Shown: piece by piece, positions 17,773 to 39,507 of the stretch
Position numbering within the stretch: the stretch's first letter is position 1
Layout: each line of letters starts with the position of its first letter
From: Acidobacteriota bacterium
Lineage (GTDB): Bacteria; Acidobacteriota; Blastocatellia; RBC074
DNA: 64,000 nucleotides
Reading direction: 5' to 3'
NCBI GenBank assembly: GCA_016196035.1
Contig: JACPYM010000088.1
Span: 1 to 64,000, forward strand
The notes under the pieces: model-generated
What the model was told of the DNA's origin: nothing
The model's input: only the letters and a program-made list of their open reading frames with translations
Databases searched by the model: none
Translations under genes and position numbers: made by a program

Positions 17773-18320
17773 ATTCTCCTCCATTTTTTGGACATAAAAT
17801 TTGGCGTTCGGTTAAGCAGCAGTTTGCCGGTGAAGCGGCAAACCTGGGACGTGCGGTGGCACGCCCAACGCGGCGTACAAAACGCGGCCTCGTTATCGAG
17901 TCAGCTTCCCGGCGCGGCTCCTGTAGCTTGATTCCAGTGACAGTCAATTGGTTTGTGCATTCACGGGCCGCAGCTTAGGCGGCGGGGCGAGTCGAAGTCT
18001 TGAGGTAGGGATAAAAGTTTCTTGAAAGAATTTTGAAAGGGGTGATCTGCTGATGAGGCAACGACTTTAGCCGGGTCTTCAACTTGAATGAAAGATGGCG
18101 CGCAACGCTGGGAGGGTACCGCGCGCGTCAGCAAGCGGAGGTCGCGCGGTTGTGCCAATACGTCATACTTGACGCGCCGCTTGCCGACGCGCGCGGTACC
18201 CCTCCCGGCGCTTGGCATTTGTCAGGCACCGAAGCTTTGCGATTGCTTCCGCCGTCACACGCCAGTATGCTGCGCCCGCAAATCTGCCCGCATTCACTAC
18301 AACCGTGAAAGGATGACGAA
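17773..18320. other. Intergenic region between divergent YVTN and CocE genes
   Basis: It holds the family A palindrome copy A3 (18096-18216). Otherwise I see no gene. A purine-rich GTGAAAGGATGACGAA precedes the CocE start and serves as its ribosome-binding site. Confidence 0.6.
18096..18216. repeat. Family A palindromic element, core only (copy A3)
   Basis: The core arms GGGTACCGCGCGCGTCAGCA and CCGCTTGCCGACGCGCGCGG are clear and extended by GGGAGG and CCTCCC. The outer TTAGATCGG-type ends are not recognisable. The loop carries CTTGACGCG as in other copies. Confidence 0.8.
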
Positions 18321-23801: not shown

Positions 23802-24593
23802 TTAGCGAGGATTCGTGCGGAAGGCTGTCGGCGGTTGTCCGAAACGCTCGCGAAAGCGTCCGGCAAAGCGCGAAGGCGATTCATATCCGACTTCATTGGC
23901 AATTTGAGTGATGGATTTGTCGGTTGCCTGCAACAGCACCAGCGCATGCGAAAGCCGCAGGTCGAGCAGGATTTTGGTGAGCGAAAGTTTTTCTGCCTGC
24001 AAACGGCGACGCAAAGTAGCTTCACTCATGGCCAGGTGTTTGGCGATTTCAGGAGCCGTCCAAGTTTGGTGTGGCGTGGATGACAAGAGCGCACGCACTT
24101 GTGCACCCACTGAAGACGGGCGCGGGAGTTCAAAACATCCGCCGTACATTTGCAACCACACCAGTACCTCTTTCAGTTGATGGATCGCAATTTCGCGCGG
24201 GCACCTTTCTGGCTGAAGAATGGCTTCGCGGGCGCGGTCATAGGCCTCGCGGAAACCTGTCTCCATTGGGCGAATCAGCATGGCTTGCTGAATTGGATGT
24301 TCGCACCGATGGGCCAAAAGAATATTCGGGTCCCAAACCAACCAAAAGGCTTCGTAATCTCCATTCGCAGCCGGGCGATTCGTAACATCGAATGAGTGTC
24401 CACCCGCGATGGCAATTGCCGCACCTGCTTCGATCACATATTCCTGCGTGGCACTGCGCAAACGTTTCGTCCCGCGCCTGACGGAAATGATGGTGGGCCG
24501 CTCGATCAACACACGGCAAATCGCCAACTCTGCTTGTTGTCTTACGCAGGCGGTGACTCCCACGCCTGGGCGAACACTAACAGCACGTTCCAT
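23802..24593 (-). CDS. AraC family transcriptional regulator
   Basis: About 263 residues. An N-terminal cupin-like sensing part (SATQEYVIEAGAAIAIAGGHS) is followed by a C-terminal two-helix-turn-helix AraC domain: TAPEIAKHLAMSEATLRRRL, then the second HTH with ITQIANEVGYESPSRFAGRF and the conserved FRERFGQPPTAFR. The start is uncertain: ATG at 24593 (MERAVSV) or an in-frame ATG 39 nt upstream; neither has a strong site. The gene is upstream of, and co-directional with, the FAH-like operon and divergent from the lectin-like propeller gene, so either could be its target. Confidence 0.9.
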   Translation of the reverse strand: MERAVSVRPGVGVTACVRQQAELAICRVLIERPTIISVRRGTKRLRSATQEYVIEAGAAIAIAGGHSFDVTNRPAANGDYEAFWLVWDPNILLAHRCEHPIQQAMLIRPMETGFREAYDRAREAILQPERCPREIAIHQLKEVLVWLQMYGGCFELPRPSSVGAQVRALLSSTPHQTWTAPEIAKHLAMSEATLRRRLQAEKLSLTKILLDLRLSHALVLLQATDKSITQIANEVGYESPSRFAGRFRERFGQPPTAFRTNPR

Positions 24594-24762
24594 AATGAAT
24601 CCAAATTGTGGACATGCCGCTTTAGATTGCAAGCGACGACCGGTGGCGGGTTACGCACCAATCGGCTTGGCAGCTTCAAGGTTTGCCTCTTCCCCGCTGA
24701 CGTTCTATCTTTCCGCTGCTTTCCCCACATCATCACAACCAAGGGCAATCAGAGAATCCGTT

Positions 24763-26703
24763 ATGCCGACTTTCACACCGCAACTCGACGCCACGCCGTT
24801 GGCCATCAAACTCGCGCCGTCGCCGTTTCCCTACCAGTTCACCGAACTCGTCAACTTTCGCGGCGATTTCGATCAAAGCGTGCGACCCGGCGAAGTCGTC
24901 AATCCCAAGGGCCTAGCCTATCACCCGCAACTGGATCGTTTGCTGGTTTCGCTTTCGCCTTACAACACGGCAGGCGAACCGCGCATTCAGCAATTGAATC
25001 AGGTCGAACGCAACAGCACCCGGCGGCGCTTTGCGCCCACCTACACCATGTTTCGCGCGGTCGAAGCCAAAATCGCCATTGTTCCGCTGAGCGGCCCGCC
25101 TGTGGCGGCGGGCTTCACGCCCGGCGAAATCTTTGTCGGGCGTGGGCCGAATACAGAGGTCTCGCGGCTGTCGGCCCAGGGCGACGTGCTGGCCGATGTC
25201 TTTGCCAATTTCGGCGCGGGCGGCGGCATGTGGGGCGCGCTCACCTTTGATACCGAGGGCAGTTTTGGCGGGCGGATGATTGCCGCCAGCGCCGAAGGCA
25301 AAATCTTTTTGGTTTCGGCGACGGGCGCGTTTACCGAACTCATTGACCTGCAACTGCGGTTGGAAGGCGCCACCGTCGCGCCGCCCACGTTTGGCCCGCT
25401 GGCGCAACAGCTCATCGTCGGCGTCGAAGGATATGGCGACCAGGACATGCACGGCGGCGAAATTTACGCCATCAATGCCGCCGGGAAAGTCACCATGCTG
25501 GCCAACATCGGGTACGCCGTCGAACACCTAGAATTCATTCCGCCGCAAAGCGGCACGTACTATCAAAACGAAATCTGCTTTGACCGCGAACGCGAGAACC
25601 GCCTCTTGAGCGTGAGCGCCAGCCAGTTTCTCAACCGCCTGGGCCGCCTGATCGCCGTCAATGAATTGACGGGCGAGTTGACCGAGATTGCCTGGGAGGG
25701 CGCGCGTTACACGCAACAATCCGTCGGCACAGTGCCGGGCCGCTGGTCTTCGGCGGGCTTTTTTATCCAGGGCACCGAACTCGAGGCTGGCTGTTTTGCA
25801 GTGCGCGCGCCGGTCGTGCCCAAGTGGACGGATTGGGCGCTGCTGCCCGGCACGCTGGTGACAGATCGCGCCCCCAGCGTGGCGGCGAGCGTGTACGGCG
25901 ATTTGTATGCCTTCACGGTCAGCCAAACCAACCGCCACGTTTTTTCGAATCACATGCGCCGCCAGGACGCGGTGTGGGAGGGATGGCAGGAAGAATCCGC
26001 GCTGCCCGCGCAACCGCTGGTCACGCCGCACGCGCTGAGCAGCACCCAGCACAACGCCGTCGTCTATGCCTTTGGCGTGCTGAGCGACGGACGCATTCAA
26101 CAACGCGTCGTCATCAGCGACAACGAGGCCTTTGGCCCGCAAGCTTGGCACGATGTGCCCGGTGGGATGCTGACCACTACAGCGGTTGCTTCCGGCGTAG
26201 CCAACGGACGGCTGGTGCTGTGCGCGTTGGGACAGAACCAGGGAATTTTCCTCAACGAATTGCAGCCCGGCGGACGCGCCTGGAGCGGCTGGTCTGAAAT
26301 CCCCGGCGGGGGCCGCACGGATGTCACGCCGACTGTCGCGACGTTTCAGGATGAACTCTACGTTTTTATCAAGGGCCTGACGTCGCGCCGCATCCTGGTC
26401 AAAACGCGTTCGGCGGACGGCGTCTGGACGCCTTGGGCCGAAGTGCCTGGTGCGGGCCGCGCCGATGCGCCAATCAGCGCGGTCAGCACACAGGAACAGC
26501 TTTACCTGTTCATCAAACAACCCGAAACACGCGCGCCCCTGGTCAATATCGCCAGCCCCACCGGCACCTGGAGCGGCTGGTTGCCTATTCCGAATGGCGG
26601 CTCGACCGACGCGGCGCTGGCGGCCACGGCAGTTGAAAATCGGGTTTACCTGTTTGCAAAAGGAATTGATGACCGGCGGATTTGGGTGCGGATGACGCTG
26701 TAG
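24763..26703 (+). CDS. Beta-propeller protein with C-terminal PLL/lectin-like repeats
   Basis: 646 residues. The first about 350 residues look like a propeller of NHL or gluconolactonase type (NPKGLAYHPQLDRLLVSLSP, GEIYAINAAGKVTMLANIGY). The second half has at least five repeats built on W-x-x-W, P-G-G-G-x-x-T/D and LYxFxKG (AWSGWSEIPGGGRTDVTP, LYVFIKGLTSRRILVKT, WTPWAEVPGAGRADAPI, WSGWLPIPNGGSTDAAL), as in PLL-type bacterial lectins. No signal peptide follows the chosen ATG; the open frame extends upstream but without a convincing start. A carbohydrate-binding role is inferred from the repeats. Confidence 0.85.
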   Translation: MPTFTPQLDATPLAIKLAPSPFPYQFTELVNFRGDFDQSVRPGEVVNPKGLAYHPQLDRLLVSLSPYNTAGEPRIQQLNQVERNSTRRRFAPTYTMFRAVEAKIAIVPLSGPPVAAGFTPGEIFVGRGPNTEVSRLSAQGDVLADVFANFGAGGGMWGALTFDTEGSFGGRMIAASAEGKIFLVSATGAFTELIDLQLRLEGATVAPPTFGPLAQQLIVGVEGYGDQDMHGGEIYAINAAGKVTMLANIGYAVEHLEFIPPQSGTYYQNEICFDRERENRLLSVSASQFLNRLGRLIAVNELTGELTEIAWEGARYTQQSVGTVPGRWSSAGFFIQGTELEAGCFAVRAPVVPKWTDWALLPGTLVTDRAPSVAASVYGDLYAFTVSQTNRHVFSNHMRRQDAVWEGWQEESALPAQPLVTPHALSSTQHNAVVYAFGVLSDGRIQQRVVISDNEAFGPQAWHDVPGGMLTTTAVASGVANGRLVLCALGQNQGIFLNELQPGGRAWSGWSEIPGGGRTDVTPTVATFQDELYVFIKGLTSRRILVKTRSADGVWTPWAEVPGAGRADAPISAVSTQEQLYLFIKQPETRAPLVNIASPTGTWSGWLPIPNGGSTDAALAATAVENRVYLFAKGIDDRRIWVRMTL

Positions 26704-26750: not shown

Positions 26751-26932
26751 TTAGATCAGGTTTCATTTCCGTGTACGGGAAAAGTCGCGCGGCGCGCACG
26801 GTACCGCGCGCGTGAGCAAGCGGAGCCTGGGCGGTTCAGCCAACGGCGCAAGCTTGACGCGCCGCTTGCTCACGCGCGCGGTACCGTCCCAGCACAACGC
26901 GCTCCCGTAAACGCAATGGCAAACCGCTTTAG
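26751..26932. repeat. Family A palindromic element, complete (copy A4)
   Basis: It begins TTAGATCAGGTTTCA and ends AAACCGCTTTAG. The core arms are ACCGCGCGCGTGAGCAAGCG (26812-26831 region) and its reverse complement near 26862-26883. It separates convergent genes. The last bases supply the TAA stop of the HPrK-like gene (26929-26931). Confidence 0.92.
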
Positions 26933-27969
26933 CCCAAACCGGCCACACGCTCAGCCGCCATCTCAACACACAACACGGCGGCGGCGACCTGCGGCTCTTG
27001 CCACAAATCGCGCCCGCTGTGAAACCGAAATGCGCGCGCGTTCTGCATTAATTGCGCCAGCCCCGCGAATTGGCGCGCCGTGTGCGCCCGCCAAAGCTGC
27101 AAATAGACGCTTTGTTCGGCCAGCTTGAGCAAAGCCGCGCTCGCGGGCACAGATTCTAAGCGGCTATGCGCCAGCTCAGTGATTTGCGGCAGAACAATGG
27201 CGGCCACCTTGGCGAAAGGCTGTTGCGCCAATTCCTCGGTGCCAAAAAATTCCAACGCTCCAACGCAGGCGCGACCCAGATAGCGGTGCCGCACAGATGC
27301 GGCGGCCAATTGCGGCCAACGCGCCAGCAGTTGCTCATCCACATGAAATTCCTTGCGCAACGGCCAGCAACGGAGCGCCCCGCCTTGCGTATCCAGCAAC
27401 AAAGAATCGTCGGCCAGCGGTTGCCAACCGGCCAGGCCCAAGGCCGTCGTCAACGTCGTCTTGCCTGCACGGGGCGAGCCTGGGAACAAACAGAGTTGGC
27501 CCGCTGGTGATAGCACAGCAGCAGCGTGCAGGTGATAAACGCCGCGCGCCCGCAACAACAAGAGCAACGGAAACAGCGTGTAAGTATTCGCCAAAATGCG
27601 CGGGATTTCCAGCGCCGCAGGGGTGATGTAACCCGTGCCGCAACCTGCCGCTGTATCCAAATGAAAGGCCGCGACGCCCGCGTCAAAATAGAACTGGCTG
27701 GCTTCGCCGCCCTCGGTCACGGCGGTGTGCCAAAGACGCAGCGCACCGGTGTGAGAAAAGAGCCGGGCCTTGTCAGGCAGCAGACTTTCGCGCCCGGGCA
27801 AGGTCTCGCAAAACTCCAAGGTCAACTGAAGGGCTGGCGTAGCGGCTGACGTGGTTTTGCTTTCGGGTTGGTAGTAGCGAAAGTAATCAGCCAGCAGATC
27901 AAGCAAGACTGTTGAACTGGAAGCAAGCTGGATTGGAATTTCAGCAAGTGAAAAATGCAGGGCGGGCAT
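26929..27969 (-). CDS. HPr kinase/phosphorylase-like ATPase next to PqqD-like gene
   Basis: About 346 residues from the ATG of MPALHFSL; a TTG 120 nt upstream, inside the preceding gene, is possible but unattractive. The HPrK-type C-terminal half shows LHAAAV, Walker A GSPRAGKTT (164-172) and the Asp pair LADDSLLLD (187-193). There is no HPr gene or PTS component near. HPrK homologues of this kind occur in RiPP clusters, the best known phosphorylating the C-terminal Ser of the lasso peptide paeninodin. It follows the PqqD-like gene by 88 nt. Its stop codon is contributed by the end of the A4 repeat. Kinase activity and target are inferred. Confidence 0.85.
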   Translation of the reverse strand: MPALHFSLAEIPIQLASSSTVLLDLLADYFRYYQPESKTTSAATPALQLTLEFCETLPGRESLLPDKARLFSHTGALRLWHTAVTEGGEASQFYFDAGVAAFHLDTAAGCGTGYITPAALEIPRILANTYTLFPLLLLLRARGVYHLHAAAVLSPAGQLCLFPGSPRAGKTTLTTALGLAGWQPLADDSLLLDTQGGALRCWPLRKEFHVDEQLLARWPQLAAASVRHRYLGRACVGALEFFGTEELAQQPFAKVAAIVLPQITELAHSRLESVPASAALLKLAEQSVYLQLWRAHTARQFAGLAQLMQNARAFRFHSGRDLWQEPQVAAAVLCVEMAAERVAGLG

Positions 27970-28057
27970 GCCAGGAAGGATAACACGCGGGCTGAGCCGT
28001 TGCTGATCTTCAGCCCGCCTTGCTGCAAACGGTGCTGCCAGCGGCGTTACAAGCGGC

Positions 28058-28483
28058 TTAACCACCGGTGATGGCCGACGGGCCGACAATCGCGGAGCCG
28101 GACAAAACCACCGAGGTCAGCGCATTGGAAAGTTTGAGTTGCGGCGCTTCGTAAGGCGGCAAATCGCTGCTGGGGGTAAAGGCGCGGGCCACGGCGGCCT
28201 GGGCGTTGGTGTATTCGATCAAGCCGTTGCGCGCCATTTCGGCCAACCAGTCGCGCGTGTTGCGTTCGGCTTGCGCGAGGTCGAGTTTGAAAGCCGATGC
28301 CAGCGCGGCGCTCAGAGCCTCGGCGGTTTGCGCGGCACCTGACCGCAGATTCTTCCAAAGCAGGATGGCTGCGGCGTTGAGCGTGTAATAGTGCAGATTT
28401 TCCAGGTCGAGGATGATGGCCTCGCGATCATCCTGCAATTCGGTGAATGAAGCCTGTGCTTTGGGAGTAATCGTCTGTTGCAT
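28058..28483 (-). CDS. PqqD-like (RRE) protein with C-terminal precursor-like tail
   Basis: 141 residues. Residues about 15-92 match the PqqD/RiPP-recognition-element fold (AIILDLENLHYYTLNAAAIL, AERNTRDWLAEMARNGLIEY). A linker is followed by YEAPQL (111-116), which fits the Y-x-x-P-x-L leader motif that RREs bind in lasso-type precursors. The final stretch, SVVLSGSAIVGPSAITGG, is small, Ser/Gly/Thr-rich and has no acidic residue, so an ordinary lasso ring (needs Asp or Glu) is not possible. It may be a self-presenting RiPP precursor or simply an extended PqqD. It is the first gene of a pair with the HPrK-like ATPase. Confidence 0.85.
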   Translation of the reverse strand: MQQTITPKAQASFTELQDDREAIILDLENLHYYTLNAAAILLWKNLRSGAAQTAEALSAALASAFKLDLAQAERNTRDWLAEMARNGLIEYTNAQAAVARAFTPSSDLPPYEAPQLKLSNALTSVVLSGSAIVGPSAITGG

Positions 28484-28534: not shown

Positions 28535-28718
28535 TTAGATCGGTTTTCACTTCGGTGTAGGGTAAAAGCCGCGCAATGGGACAGTACCGCGCGCGTGAGC
28601 AAGCGGCGCGTCAAGTCTGGCGGACTGGTACAGTAGCGCAGTCTCCGCTTGCTCACGCGCGCGGTACTGTCCCGGCATTACGCGCCCTTGCCGTACACGC
28701 AATTGAAATCCGACCTAG
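28535..28718. repeat. Family A palindromic element, complete (copy A5)
   Basis: It runs from TTAGATCGGTTTTCA to GAAATCCGACCTAG. The core arms are GGGACAGTACCGCGCGCGTG with AGCAAGCGG, and the complement after the loop. It lies between two minus-strand genes, and its last bases supply the TAG stop of the TolB-like gene (28715-28717). Confidence 0.92.
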
Positions 28719-29727: not shown

Positions 29728-32700
29728 CTAGCGCAAGCGGCGCACGGCGTCATTCTTAGGATCGCAGAAATAAATTTCGCCATTCAGGCCCAGGGCAATT
29801 CCGACAAACTGTTCCACCGGGGCCTTGGTGCCAAAGGTCGAAACCAGAATCTGCGAGGCGTCCAGATTCATTTGCGCCAGATTGGCCGGGCCAAAGTCGC
29901 CTGCATAACCGGGGCCGCCCGTTCCGGCGATGGCTGCTGGCGAAGCCGTATTGCCGCTGATCGTCAGCCGCAGGATTTTGCTATCGCCCGTATTGGTCAG
30001 ATAAACCACGCCGTTGGCATCCACCACCAGATCACGCGGTCGGTTGAGCAGATTGCCCGACAGCAAGGTCACAAAGTTATTCGTGGTGCTGGCCGTGTCC
30101 GAATTGGCATCCGGATTTTGGCGGCGCAAGAGGCGATGGGTCAAGGTATCCACGACCAACAAGCGGCCCGTCGCATCAAAGGCCAAGCCGGTATACATAT
30201 TGCTCGGCGGTTGCGTCAGCGCCAGAATCGTCGCCCCCGGTAATTCCGACAACGTCGAAACGGCACCACTCGCGCGCCGGATGCGGCGCACCCGGCTGTT
30301 GCCACAATCCGCGATATAAAAATCGCCCGTGATCGGCGAAATCGCAATGTCGGACGCGCCCACAAATTTGGCGTTGCGCACATCCGGGCCATCATTCACG
30401 TCTTTGTTGGTGTCTACGCCGCCGCCAAAGACGACTTTGATATAGCCCGCCGGAACCGAGATTTCGTTGGAAGTCCCCGCAAAGAAAACGACAGGTTGAT
30501 TGGTCGTATTGATGAAGCGGATGACACTGGTGCGGCGGTTAATCGGTGCCGCCAAGGTACCGGGCAAGGAAGGTCCGCGTTTGGTGTCCACGACGAAGAC
30601 GCCCTGCGCAGTGACAAGCAAGCCTGAAGGCGTATCGAACCCCGCTTGGATCGCCGGGACATCATCCGTGCCACCACCTTCGATTTTGCCGACATCGCGA
30701 TTCACCGTGACGATGGTGCCAGGCGGAACCGTCAATTGCTCCGTTTGCGATAGGCTGCCAAAGAGCGTGATCGGTGCATTGGTGCGATTTACATAACGGA
30801 GCTTGCTGTTGAGTGTGTCGGCAATCCACAAACTCCCATTGGTTGGATCAACAGCAATACCGCCCGGCGATTTGAGCTCCGCGCTCGTCGCCAGCCCGCC
30901 GTCATAGGGCGTGGACCCACCAGTGCCAGCCACGGTGTTGATCACATTGGCGGGCACGATCAAACCGGCGATTTCGGCCTGACTGCCGCTCAAATTGACA
31001 AAGCGCAACCGGCCCCGGGCGACCAACACCTGATCGCAAATATAAATACCCTTGGCATCCGCCGTGATGGAAGCGAGAGGAATATCCGCCGACGAACTGA
31101 CCAGATTAAGCAAGCCATTTGCCGCAGGCCCGCCATCGCCACAACTGTTCGACGAGTAATCACAGAAAACTTCGATATTGCCGACGACTTTGGGGGCGCT
31201 CTGCCCTTCCACCACGACAAGCTGGTGCGCACTGCCGAGGGCGATGTAAACCTTGTTATTCAAGACGGCCAAGCCTGAAGGGAAAGGCGGGCGCGCATAA
31301 GCGCCGATGGGTGAATTGCGATCAGCCGTGAATTGCGCCACCAGCGAAGCCAGCCCCGCGCCATCCACCTTGATCACGCGCCCGTGTCCGGTGTCCGCAA
31401 TAAACGTATTGCCCGCCGGATCGGTCGCCACGGCACGTGGGGTCAACAACGGAATTCCGGTTGCTGGGCCGGCCACAAATGGCTCAATGGCTTTGGTGTT
31501 GACGCCTGTGCTGGCGAAGACAGAGGCGTTCCCACCCGTGGCGGGAATACGGTAAACCCGATGTTGCCCGGTGGTCGCATCCGCTACCAGCACATCGCCA
31601 TTCGGTTTCACCGCCAGCCCATTCAAGGTCGGGCCAAACTGCGAGTCAATCGAGAAAGTACCCACGCGCCCAGCACCGGTAGTTTGACCGTTGATCACGA
31701 TGCTGCTCGTCGAAACATTGACGAAACGGATCTGGGAACCGCCCTGATCAATAAAATAAACGACATCCCCTGTGCCGGGACTAACCGCCAACCCCGTAAC
31801 CTTGCCTAAATCAGCGGTCAACGCCAGGGTGTTGTCCAACAAATCAACGCCGCCACCAGCCACCGCGCGCACCGTCCCGCCCGCGATCTTGATGCCGGCC
31901 AGGGTGACGGCATTCCGCGTCGTGTTCAAAAAACGCAACAGCGGAGTGCGGTTGGTCACCTGATCAACAAAATAGATGCCCCGGCCCTGCGGGTCAGCGG
32001 CGGCCAGGACGGGGGAAACGAGCGTCGTTTTGACCCCGACATTGCCATCGCCATACAGTCCGCCCGCTACCGTATCAATCAGCAAATTGGCATTGCCACT
32101 GCCGGTCGTGCCGCCGGTGTTGAGCAACGAACCCGATAATTCGACGACGCCGCCCGTCGAGCTATTGTTGATTTGCGAATTACGCACCGACAAATTGGAG
32201 CCGTCCGAAATCACCGCGCCTTTGCCCTGATCGCTACTGCCGCCATTGAGTACGCGCACAAAAAACAGCAGCGAACTGCTGGTGGCGTTACGCGCAAAAA
32301 AGAGCGCACCGAAATTGCCGCCCCCTGTGAGCTTGTCAAAGGTGATATATCGCGCCGCACCTTGCCCTGCGCCAGGCACCTGATTGACACCGGCAAAGCC
32401 GTTAGCCGCCAAACCACCCACACGATTCAAGCCGTAATCACCGGCCTGCAAATCCATGCCCGCATCAAGTTGGATGACGGCACCTGGGCCAATCGTCAAT
32501 TCAGCGGGCGGCGCGGGCGGCACAGCGCCGACAATCGAGGGATTGGTGTTGCTGCCGCGAATTTGAATGGGCGTGTCGCCTTGCCCAACCAGCACCCCGG
32601 AGCGCGTAAAATCGTTGGTTGCTGCCGGGATTTGAATTACTGCGGCCACGCTGTCAGTGCCGGTAAACACGTTCGCCGCGCCATAAAAATAACTGGCGTC

Positions 32701-34347
32701 GGTGACAAACGTCCCCAGCGGCGCGGCATCCTGGCCGGTGGTCGCCGGGATTTCAAACAAACCCAGCGCCGCGTTGGCGCTGACAATCAAGGCCGCCGTG
32801 CCTGCCGCGACGCCGTTGTATTCGACGCGATTGCGGGTGAAGCCGGTCAATACATCGCCGCTGCCGCCCGCCGCCAATCCCGCGCCCGCGCTGTGCCGAG
32901 TGATACTGTCGGTAAACCGCAACGTGCGGCCCGAACCCGTGATGTCCAGATTCGGCTTGGCATTTGCGCCGCCGAATTCGACCACCACATTGCGCAGGGT
33001 GAGCGTGCTGCTTGATGCCGCCGTCGCATCAATGCCACCCCAGGCGCCTTGCACAGGTAAAGCCGCGCCCGGCGAACGCTGGGCTGTAAAAACGATGGGC
33101 GTGGCCGTCGCCACACTGGGAATCGCCACGCCTGGAATGCCGCCATTCGCCGTCAGATTGCCCGCCGCGCTGAGCAGCACGCGCGTATTGTTGGCCGCGT
33201 AAAAAACCGTGCCCGGTTGCACCGTGACATTGCTGGTGAAGGTCACATCGCTGCTGAGCAAAAACGGCCCCGTGTCCGGCAATGAAGTAACATTCCCGCT
33301 GAGCGTGTGGCCGCCATCGGGCACGCCCGTGACAATCAAACGCCGCGACAACGAACTGGAACCTGTGCCGCCTGGGGTGCCGCCCGCCAGCGTGACCCGC
33401 ACGCCGTAAACACCCGGTGCAGTCCCCGGCGGCACGGTGGCCGTGATTTGCGTCGCGTTGACCACCACCACATTGCTTAGCGTGGCCACAGAAGCCCCCG
33501 CGTTATTCAACAGGTTCACGGTCGGCGCACCGGTAAAATTCTGCCCGCGAATCACAATGCCCGCGCCGTTATTCGCATTGACTTGCACCGCCGCCGGATA
33601 AACGCTCTCTGCCGCGACACCCACATCGGCTAAGACGACAAAGGAAAAGAAAAACCGCGCGGGCGTGGTCGAAACGTCAAAAGACCACACCGCATTACTG
33701 GTGGCGCCGGATGCGATATTGCCGTAGGCGCGCGAAATGTTGAGGCTGCCTTGGTAGGGAATAAAACCGTCGTTGAAGTAAGAAAAGCCTGTTTGGCCCG
33801 GCGTGGCATTGGCATTTGGCAACGTGACTGTGCCATTGCACGGCGCATTTGTATCGGTGGGACAGACTTTGAATCTGGTGAAGAGCAGCCGCGTGTTGTA
33901 AAGGGTCACGGCGGCCTTGTTCATCAACTGAATCTCGCCAGAGATTTTCCCCGCCAAATCGCCGCTCTGGATGAATGTGCTGTTGACCACGGTGAACGTA
34001 AAGCCGGTATTGCGCGGGACTTCGCTGTTGGGATCAACGCGCACATTGCGTGTCCGTCCGTCGGCTGTGCGTTCCGTGCGCGCCGTTTGCAACACCATCT
34101 GCTTGGTGCGCGGATCGAAGGTGCCTTCATAATCCGCCACCACCGCCCCGGCTTCGGCGCCTGACGCTTGGTCTTGCAGCGGCCAGGCATTCAACTCAAG
34201 GGTCGTGACCGCCGCCGCGCGCGCCGCGCCAAAGTAACTCAAGCCCAAGGCGCCCACACCCGCCAACACCACGGCCAACAGCGCCGCTTGCAGCCTGGGG
34301 CGGGTTATCCGCCGCCGCCGCTTAATGACGATTTTGTGCTCAACCAT
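29728..34347 (-). CDS. Giant secreted protein with IPT/TIG, beta-helix-like and NHL repeats
   Basis: About 1,539 residues. I chose MVEHKIVIKRRRR, with AAAGGAG 11 nt upstream. A basic N-terminus and long signal segment (LQAALLAVVLAGVGALGLSY) lead into an N-terminal beta domain. An IPT/TIG domain follows (VIRGQNFTGAPTVNLLNNAG, ITATVPPGTAPGVYGVRV). Next is a long stretch with Asn/Ser/Gly-rich rungs like a right-handed beta-helix, then about ten NHL-type units (GIAVDPTNGSLWIADTLNSK, DIAISPITGDFYIADCGNSR, DLVVDANGVVYLTNTGDSK). It is a likely surface or extracellular protein for adhesion or ligand binding. The TolB-like gene follows 71 nt on. Confidence 0.92.
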   Translation of the reverse strand: MVEHKIVIKRRRRITRPRLQAALLAVVLAGVGALGLSYFGAARAAAVTTLELNAWPLQDQASGAEAGAVVADYEGTFDPRTKQMVLQTARTERTADGRTRNVRVDPNSEVPRNTGFTFTVVNSTFIQSGDLAGKISGEIQLMNKAAVTLYNTRLLFTRFKVCPTDTNAPCNGTVTLPNANATPGQTGFSYFNDGFIPYQGSLNISRAYGNIASGATSNAVWSFDVSTTPARFFFSFVVLADVGVAAESVYPAAVQVNANNGAGIVIRGQNFTGAPTVNLLNNAGASVATLSNVVVVNATQITATVPPGTAPGVYGVRVTLAGGTPGGTGSSSLSRRLIVTGVPDGGHTLSGNVTSLPDTGPFLLSSDVTFTSNVTVQPGTVFYAANNTRVLLSAAGNLTANGGIPGVAIPSVATATPIVFTAQRSPGAALPVQGAWGGIDATAASSSTLTLRNVVVEFGGANAKPNLDITGSGRTLRFTDSITRHSAGAGLAAGGSGDVLTGFTRNRVEYNGVAAGTAALIVSANAALGLFEIPATTGQDAAPLGTFVTDASYFYGAANVFTGTDSVAAVIQIPAATNDFTRSGVLVGQGDTPIQIRGSNTNPSIVGAVPPAPPAELTIGPGAVIQLDAGMDLQAGDYGLNRVGGLAANGFAGVNQVPGAGQGAARYITFDKLTGGGNFGALFFARNATSSSLLFFVRVLNGGSSDQGKGAVISDGSNLSVRNSQINNSSTGGVVELSGSLLNTGGTTGSGNANLLIDTVAGGLYGDGNVGVKTTLVSPVLAAADPQGRGIYFVDQVTNRTPLLRFLNTTRNAVTLAGIKIAGGTVRAVAGGGVDLLDNTLALTADLGKVTGLAVSPGTGDVVYFIDQGGSQIRFVNVSTSSIVINGQTTGAGRVGTFSIDSQFGPTLNGLAVKPNGDVLVADATTGQHRVYRIPATGGNASVFASTGVNTKAIEPFVAGPATGIPLLTPRAVATDPAGNTFIADTGHGRVIKVDGAGLASLVAQFTADRNSPIGAYARPPFPSGLAVLNNKVYIALGSAHQLVVVEGQSAPKVVGNIEVFCDYSSNSCGDGGPAANGLLNLVSSSADIPLASITADAKGIYICDQVLVARGRLRFVNLSGSQAEIAGLIVPANVINTVAGTGGSTPYDGGLATSAELKSPGGIAVDPTNGSLWIADTLNSKLRYVNRTNAPITLFGSLSQTEQLTVPPGTIVTVNRDVGKIEGGGTDDVPAIQAGFDTPSGLLVTAQGVFVVDTKRGPSLPGTLAAPINRRTSVIRFINTTNQPVVFFAGTSNEISVPAGYIKVVFGGGVDTNKDVNDGPDVRNAKFVGASDIAISPITGDFYIADCGNSRVRRIRRASGAVSTLSELPGATILALTQPPSNMYTGLAFDATGRLLVVDTLTHRLLRRQNPDANSDTASTTNNFVTLLSGNLLNRPRDLVVDANGVVYLTNTGDSKILRLTISGNTASPAAIAGTGGPGYAGDFGPANLAQMNLDASQILVSTFGTKAPVEQFVGIALGLNGEIYFCDPKNDAVRRLR

Positions 34348-34850
34348 TATCTTTCCAACTCCTTTTCCAAACGGCATAAGGGATCGGCTCTGCATTTTCT
34401 GGTTTCCGTAACTTCGGGGGAATTCGCAAGTGTTCAGTAGCAAGGGCGAACCCTAGTGGATTTGGATTGGGGCATTCATACTGAAGAACGGCTTATTTGA
34501 CTGCGACAACCAGAACCTTTGCCAGTGAGGAGGTTCAATTGCTGCACTAAAAATCACTTACCGCGTCGCCTCGTATAGAGCGGGCATCTTAAAGGAGCAC
34601 CTGGGGTCAGTCAAGTCATTCTTGCCAGCCGAATGGCCCACTAGAGCCAGGAATAGTCGGCCTCACAACGCCGCGTCAACACGCCTTGGCGAAGCGCGCG
34701 CAAGCAGTATTGATCGGCGTCTCAGCGCTTTTGCGCCAGGCTCGTCAGCGGTCGCCGCGAATGCACGGACAAATTCTGTTTGCCACGCGCGCGCGATCAC
34801 GCTAAAAATACGCGCCACCGATCCACCACTTACAAGGAGTCACGCACCGC
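34348..34850. other. Intergenic region between divergent NHL-protein and cupin genes
   Basis: About 500 bp without a convincing gene; only short spurious frames are present. ACAAGGAGTC just before 34851 is the ribosome-binding site of the cupin gene. I see no family A-E repeat here. Confidence 0.6.
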
Positions 34851-36769: not shown

Positions 36770-36943
36770 ACCAGTTTGCAATTGAATGTACGGGCAGTGC
36801 GGCTAAGACAGTCCCGCGCGCGTGAGCGAGCGGGACGTCAACGCTGGCGCAATACGGTCTACCCTGAGTCTCCGCTTGCTCACGCGCGCGGTACTGCCCC
36901 GGAGCGCGCTTTTTCCCGTACACTGATCTGCAATCCGATCTAA
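36766..36943. repeat. Family A palindromic element, complete (copy A6)
   Basis: It begins TTAGACCAGTTTGCAATTG and ends CAATCCGATCTAA. The core arms are CCCGCGCGCGTGAGCGAGCG and CCGCTTGCTCACGCGCGCGG. It lies between convergent genes, and its first bases give the stop codon of the PHP gene. Confidence 0.92.
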
Positions 36944-39326: not shown

Positions 39327-39507
39327 TTAGATCGGTTTTCACATCGGTGTATGGGAAAAGTCGCGCAGCGGGACAGTACCGCGCGCGTCAGCAAGCGGCG
39401 CGTCAAGCTTACGCCATTGGCTGAGTCGCCCAGGCACCGCTTGCTGACGCGCGCGGTACTGTCCCGGCACAACGCGCTCCCGTAAACGCAATTGCAAACC
39501 GCTCTAA
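39327..39507. repeat. Family A palindromic element, complete (copy A7)
   Basis: It runs from TTAGATCGGTTTTCA to GCAAACCGCTCTAA, 181 bp. The core arms are GACAGTACCGCGCGCGTCAG and CTGACGCGCGCGGTACTGTC. It is the best-preserved copy and lies between convergent cytochrome and dehydrogenase genes. Confidence 0.95.

Follow-up and report, generated by a model that had tools for sequence, protein, structure and literature searches.

A PqqD-type protein of 141 residues from an Acidobacteriota bacterium, encoded in the DNA analysed here (64,000 nucleotides of contig JACPYM010000088.1, hereafter the window), ends in a conserved tail that is, judging by sequence, most likely a peptide precursor fused to its own RRE reader. 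We slightly favor the view that this RRE-tail protein brings its own precursor joined to the leader reader, that the tail is held in the RRE groove and that a Ser in it is phosphorylated by the HprK-like kinase of the adjoining gene. An earlier note on this DNA had pointed to the same two ORFs, a PqqD/RRE protein with a YEAPQL tail and an HPrK-like gene with GSPRAGKTT and LADD, and both are present. Its idea that reader, leader and substrate share one chain gained support from a comparison of related loci, in which a separate precursor is absent exactly where the tail exists. The features of the locus are listed in Table 1.

Table 1. Features of the RRE-tail locus and its operon, in coordinates of the window
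Feature	Position	Strand	Basis or remark
RRE-tail protein (PqqD/RRE domain + C-terminal tail LPPYEAPQLKLSNALTSVVLSGSAIVGPSAITGG)	28058-28483	-	141 aa ORF
RRE (PqqD) domain, residues 4-92	28208..28474	-	Pfam PF05402 + AlphaFold model
Variable linker, residues 93-107	28163..28207	-	mean identity 0.33, dN/dS 0.29
Leader-like segment LPPYEAPQLKLSNALTSVVL, residues 108-127; [YW]xxPx[LV] motif at 111-116	28103..28162	-	
Core-like C-terminal end SGSAIVGPSAITGG, residues 128-141 + stop	28058..28102	-	
Ser130, predicted phosphorylation site	28094-28096	-	lasso-precursor register; inference
HprK-like kinase, 346 aa: H148, Walker A G164-T171, D187-D188	26929..27969	-	TIGR04352
Exported PD40/TolB-like beta-propeller protein, 313 aa	28715..29656	-	PF07676 E 2.8e-22
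Giant exported NHL-repeat protein, 1571 aa as longest ORF	29728..34443	-	PF01436 E 1.2e-21

The RRE-tail protein, its kinase and their operon

Pfam PqqD (PF05402, cut-off 23.4 bits) matched residues 21-89 of the protein (E 9.5e-12, 45.5 bits). AlphaFold run with 8 orthologues alone reached a pLDDT of 55, and an alignment of 66 RREs gave a folded domain with pLDDT of about 80 up to residue 90, comprising strands at 11-17, 21-26 and 31-35 and helices at 37-48, 54-65 and 69-85. The top structural matches of this model were lasso RREs solved with leader peptides, the best being the TbiB1-leader complex (VIA Z 12.5, rmsd 2.2 over 88 residues); the TfuB1-leader complex scored VIA Z 11.4. By orthologue profile, the closest solved relative was LppB, the RRE of the phosphorylated LPP system (E 1.8e-6), in which L32, N33, D70, F74 and L83 are the groove residues contacting the YxxP motif (PMC13381572). 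In the alignment these correspond to L35, N36, N75, W79 and L88 of the window protein. L35, N36 and L88 are invariant in the 8 orthologues, position 75 is Asp in most of them (D, E or N overall) and position 79 is F or W. The residues predicted to hold YxxP thus appear to be kept in the RRE-tail protein.

The earlier note had described an RRE fold at residues 15-92 that continues into YEAPQL. The fold is borne out by the Pfam match and the model, but the direct continuation is not, since the fast-evolving linker, the least conserved part of the protein, lies in between. The leader-like segment is the most conserved stretch (mean identity 0.77, dN/dS 0.03 within genus g6), and the RRE domain is less constrained (mean identity 0.65, dN/dS 0.12). 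The tail, on whose conservation the earlier note had staked its reading, is present in 8/8 orthologues with the consensus LPAYEPPQLKLSNSLTQVTLSGSSTIATNAI, and YE[PA]Px[LV] occurs in every one of them, with T, V or N at +15, the place of Thr (or Ile/Val) in the leader pattern of lasso precursors. L108, P109, Y111, E112, P114, S119, N120 and L127 are invariant. S-G-S follows the leader in seven of the eight, one orthologue (L038/L009) lacking it, and Gly129 is invariant. The window copy has Val at the leader's penultimate-Thr position, which is Thr in most orthologues. Kept in 8 genomes under strong purifying selection, the tail is more than a chance extension. Most of it had pLDDT of about 50 or less, and AlphaFold shows no tail in the groove (one bridge residue is seen at 117). 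The 25 residues that follow YEAPQL (residues 111-116) hold no Asp or Glu, so that the acidic residue which a lasso core has at position 7-9 to close its ring is missing, and there is no cyclase or B2 peptidase; as the note had observed, this is not an ordinary lasso peptide. A role of C-terminal Gly-Gly as a conjugation signal was ruled out, as the ends vary among orthologues.

The kinase gene lies 88 bp downstream of the RRE-tail gene, and homologues support a start at the ATG at 27969, not at the TTG at 28089. The protein carries the GSPRAGKTT and LADD motifs, and its ATP-binding residues proved to be conserved as the note's reading demanded: H148, G164, G169, K170, T171, D187 and D188 are invariant in the 8 orthologues. 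The motif residues are common to 32/32 kinases compared, except R167 and the S/T at 171. From the BsfK motif (H148-G163-G166-G168-K169-S170-D186-D187) the kinase departs only twice, with R as the third residue of Walker-type glycines and T instead of S; throughout the window-type clade this glycine is replaced by Arg. By this set of H, Walker A and DD motifs it would be a kinase of the BsfK, LppK and PadeK kind. Its match to TIGR04352 (HprK_rel_A) is weak (E 2.2e-13), and the scores for TIGR04352 and TIGR04353 (HPr-rel-A system), 50 and 25.3 bits, lie under the NCBI curated cut-offs of 200 and 35, which places it, on sequence, as a relative of the HPr-rel-A families and not a member by NCBI's rule. 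In the kinase tree, the window-type kinases are sister to those of FVEP clusters (described below; support 98/97), and the kinases beside DPIH-type tails form a separate clade (100/99).

The RRE-tail and kinase pair was found in 8 of 11 genomes of the family to which the window's genome belongs, adjacent in all eight. The pair, which the earlier note took as a minimal two-gene system, does hold together, but its extent is larger: it belongs to a conserved operon of four genes, and similar fusions occur elsewhere. Wherever the available sequence is long enough, genes for the giant NHL protein, the PD40 protein, the RRE-tail protein and the kinase follow one another in this order with short gaps. 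The PD40 gene is upstream of the RRE gene in 8/8 loci (mean identity of the protein 0.57), and the NHL gene heads the run in all seven loci long enough to show the start, 34-112 bp before the PD40 gene. No conserved RRE-binding motif was found in the NHL, PD40 or kinase proteins, and the operon has genes for neither a receiver nor a DNA-binding partner. As stated in the note, no cyclase or protease adjoins the pair; we also saw no transporter among these neighbors, no lasso cyclase or B2 peptidase gene among the neighbors of the window pair or of orthologous loci, and neither a separate precursor ORF near the kinase nor a peptidase in the conserved operon in the 8 loci. Taken strictly, the note's term RiPP goes further than the locus shows, the kinase being the only maturation enzyme present.

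Two other features of the surroundings were observed. A convergent gene beside the kinase (window 24409-26703, + strand) encodes a repeat protein with GW..IPxGG..TDxx repeats, perhaps a lectin-like beta-propeller; it matches no Pfam family above cut-off, and such a gene adjoins the kinase also in L033, L034, L035 and L037. A REP- or MITE-like palindrome, with arms of 29 nt around GGTACCGCGCGCGTGAGCAAGCGG and a loop of about 35 nt, occurs at 26798-26887 and 28578-28673, with further copies in the window at 18115-18200, 36810-36895 and 39375-39460. That the first two copies lie on either side of the RRE-kinase pair is coincidence: the 23-mer of the repeat has 328 exact matches in the genome, and a mobile cassette delimited by the two was therefore rejected.

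Tails and separate precursors

Among the 66 RREs compared, 15 have a C-terminal extension of at least 25 residues. All 15 extensions contain [YFW]xxPx[LIVMF] (observed form [YF]xxPx[LMVF]), which shuffling would place in 4.7% of them each. The extended RREs fall into at least three tail types: the window type, the DPIH type and a type ending in LMLSGE (L128). Near related kinases that accompany a tail-less RRE, an independent small ORF with [YFW]xxPx[LIVM]-9-Thr usually lies within 2.5 kb of the kinase (17/21 loci), and none does in the 15 tail loci; the background away from kinases is 5 such ORFs in 521 kb. L062 was left out of this count as a false kinase match. The exclusion between tail and separate peptide is strong by Fisher's test (7e-7), although the loci are related, so that the test overstates their independence. 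The separate peptides of the tail-less loci are either lasso precursors (YQxPELxLYGNISEITQAVDMMGMADGG) or members of a FVEPxVSxPVDVLEATTFFQ family. Since a separate peptide is usual beside tail-less RREs and never occurs in tail loci, the tail is most likely the precursor fused to its reader.

Searches beyond the locus were negative. In the window's genome we found no second copy of the tail and no stand-alone lasso or FVEP-type precursor; elsewhere in the family the tail gave weak matches in long proteins only, and a plasmid search with the window protein gave no match. By position shuffling, the tail resembles same-family lasso leaders (P 0.003) and DPIH tails (P 0.006). Profile comparison was weak for same-family lasso precursors (hhalign probability 3%, E 0.016), gave E 9e-5 for DPIH tails, and found no match between the tails and FVEP peptides. 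As profile comparison gave little for lasso precursors and nothing for FVEP peptides, the link between tail and precursor rests on motif, register and genomic exclusion.

A single origin of all tails was rejected on the kinase tree (p 0.019 without L128, 0.001 with L128); the short RRE tree does not reject it (p 0.235). The kinase tree, which is unrooted, suggests that fusion of RRE and precursor arose more than once, with losses as a possible alternative.

Several related families came to light. DPIH-type tails (YxxPxLxxYxDMQELLLLDPIHxVDxxGWP, or a DPP variant) lie beside HprK-like kinases at L125, L126, L127, L129, L130 and L131, with glycosyltransferases and NTP_transf_5 among the neighbors; RREs of this type occur in several acidobacterial families and on plasmid pCRI9333.04 of Crinalium epipsammum (L139:5896-6360). 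In L128, a frame between RRE and kinase resembles signal peptidase, with no Pfam match.

FVEP peptides, of 50-90 aa and ending FVEPxVSxPVDVLEATTFFQ..., are encoded just upstream of an HprK-like kinase (L052:3895-4080 on the + strand, L053, L057-L060, L067, L068, L133 and L135) and also occur at L054 and L055, in the window's own genus. Genes for a discrete RRE, NTP_transf_5 and a radical SAM/SPASM enzyme accompany them, and a giant exported protein is often near. They look like an undescribed RiPP class of Blastocatellia; no description of such clusters was found in the literature. One ancestral cluster for these and the window operon is not claimed, their giant exported proteins having no sequence similarity. 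In each of two same-family lasso clusters (L063:4741-5277, + strand; L064:6270-6682, - strand), an HprK-like kinase accompanies a tandem pair of precursors. Thr is the last residue of most of the cores, which have few Ser or none.

A proposed mechanism and its alternatives

The tail is built like a lasso or LPP precursor, with a putative groove-fitting YxxPxL leader and then a short Ser/Thr/Gly-rich end. We propose that the RRE groove would accept the tail of its own chain or of a neighboring copy and thereby present it to the HprK-like kinase; the 18 residues from the domain to Tyr111 would suffice for binding in cis. The kinase would then transfer phosphate from ATP to a Ser that closely follows the leader. 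The earlier note had taken paeninodin, in which a C-terminal Ser is modified, as the model for this step. BsfK and LppK, which phosphorylate core Ser3 (PMC10368454, PMC13381572), serve better, and the orthologues end in GG, GPA, NG or TG and not in Ser. In the Bsf system the RRE speeds the kinase's phosphorylation of Ser3 (PMC10368454), and in LPP the leader binds the RRE through YxxP and the kinase adds several phosphates to Ser3 (PMC13381572). In the lasso register, which puts Tyr at -17, positions -2 and -1 of the tail are Val (most orthologues have Thr) and Leu, and S-G-S follows. This register, taken from same-family lasso precursors, puts Ser3 at Ser130, which is thus the likeliest acceptor. 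The LPP register is one residue shorter and puts position 3 at Gly129, between two serines, so that Ser128 is an alternative. By analogy with these systems, the groove should take up the tail, in cis or in trans, and Ser130 (or Ser128) should receive the phosphate.

With neither a peptidase nor an exporter in the locus, the product would probably remain attached to the RRE. Instead of a free peptide, we would then expect a linear phospho-protein that is linked to exported partners and may act with, or regulate, the exported NHL and PD40 proteins of the operon.

It is also possible, with about one chance in four in our estimate, that the tail acts as a pseudo-leader, filling its own RRE's groove in an autoinhibitory or gating role, the true substrate of RRE and kinase being encoded elsewhere or being an unrecognised molecule. 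The DPIH-type tails speak for this, and against phosphorylation of the tail, as they have no obvious acceptor, lacking a Ser right after the leader although an HprK-like kinase adjoins; in that group the tail need not be an acceptor. Stand-alone lasso precursors that share the tail's motif are also encoded in three genomes (G150, G152 and G153). However, the window's genome has no recognisable stand-alone precursor and none lies near the kinase in any tail locus, the operon partners offer no conserved RRE-binding motif, and the Ser/Gly end that follows the leader is itself conserved.

We consider improbable a switch like HPr/HprK, in which reversible phosphorylation of the RRE-tail protein would be a signal, for example to control whether the NHL and PD40 proteins are made or exported, and there would be no peptide product. 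The strict linkage to two exported beta-propeller proteins fits it, and so does the lack of a protease or transporter near the locus; a fusion that lacks a release step is more easily understood as a switch than as a natural product. The operon has no receiver or DNA-binding partner for such a signal, however, and in profile searches the kinase matches HprK-related kinases known from peptide systems but not the model for HPr kinase proper. Finally, an ordinary PqqD-type chaperone with an incidental disordered tail that resembles the motif by chance, a reading to which the weak profile match to same-family lasso precursors alone would lend itself, is very hard to reconcile with purifying selection stronger on the tail than on the domain, with the motif in every extended RRE and with the absence of separate precursors where the tail exists.

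Relation to known systems and significance

The nearest known relatives of the proposed fusion of RRE and precursor are the LPP systems of Bacillota (LppA/LppB/LppK/LppS; PMC13381572), which share a discrete RRE, a YxxPx[VL] leader, an HprK-like kinase and the lack of a macrolactam cyclase. Their product is linear and Ser-phosphorylated, as we propose by analogy for the RRE-tail protein. They differ in having a separate precursor of 35-200 aa, where the RRE-tail protein bears both leader and core-like end as a tail of its own, and in having a SipW-like peptidase, an NTP transferase and an exporter, all absent from the RRE-tail locus. Phosphorylated lasso peptides (bsf, with BsfK/BsfB1, PMC10368454; paeninodin types) share the kinase motif, the YxxPxL leader and Val, Ile or Thr near the leader end, and lasso clusters that include an HprK-like kinase occur in acidobacteria of the same family (L063, L064). 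Help of the RRE in phosphorylation would be a further common feature. The RRE-tail locus differs in that it has no B2 peptidase or cyclase, its core-like end has no Asp or Glu and its putative precursor is fused to the reader. By analogy the kinase step would be that of LPP and phosphorylated lasso systems, but the separate precursor, peptidase and cyclase of those systems are missing.

FVEP clusters share a sister-clade HprK-like kinase, a discrete RRE and often giant and small exported proteins close by; they differ in their separate peptide of 50-80 aa, radical SAM/SPASM enzyme and NTP_transf_5. DPIH-type RREs (L125, L126, L129-L131 and the Crinalium plasmid, L139) have their own [YF]xxPx[LMF] tail, a kinase in the next genes and no separate precursor found, but their tail continues into the DMQELLLLDPIHxVDxxGWP or DPP stretch with no S-G-S, the kinase is of another clade, and glycosyltransferase and NTP_transf_5 are neighbors. 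In borosins, the core is fused to its methyltransferase. There too the substrate is on the C-terminus of a pathway protein, but that protein is the modifying enzyme; in the RRE-tail system it is the reader, and the enzyme has a gene of its own.

In the literature searched, no description of RRE-leader fusions paired with HprK-like kinases was found, and for PqqD with HprK only lasso and LPP papers were found. Many RiPP clusters are recognised by their RREs, and genome miners search for a separate precursor peptide. Of PF05402 proteins, 21% are longer than a discrete RRE with no other annotation (PMC12710340); some of these over-long proteins may carry their own substrate. We tentatively suggest, at well under even odds, that there are self-presenting systems in which reader, leader and substrate are one polypeptide, phosphorylated by a dedicated kinase with no cleavage, which have arisen more than once from ancestors with a separate precursor and, in the window's case, act as a conserved part of an exported-protein operon instead of yielding a free natural product. 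If over-long RRE proteins do carry their own substrate, clusters dismissed for want of a precursor would be complete, a one-chain system would ease the study of leader recognition and kinase presentation, and RRE/kinase chemistry would be linked to exported-protein operons, where a free natural product is not expected.
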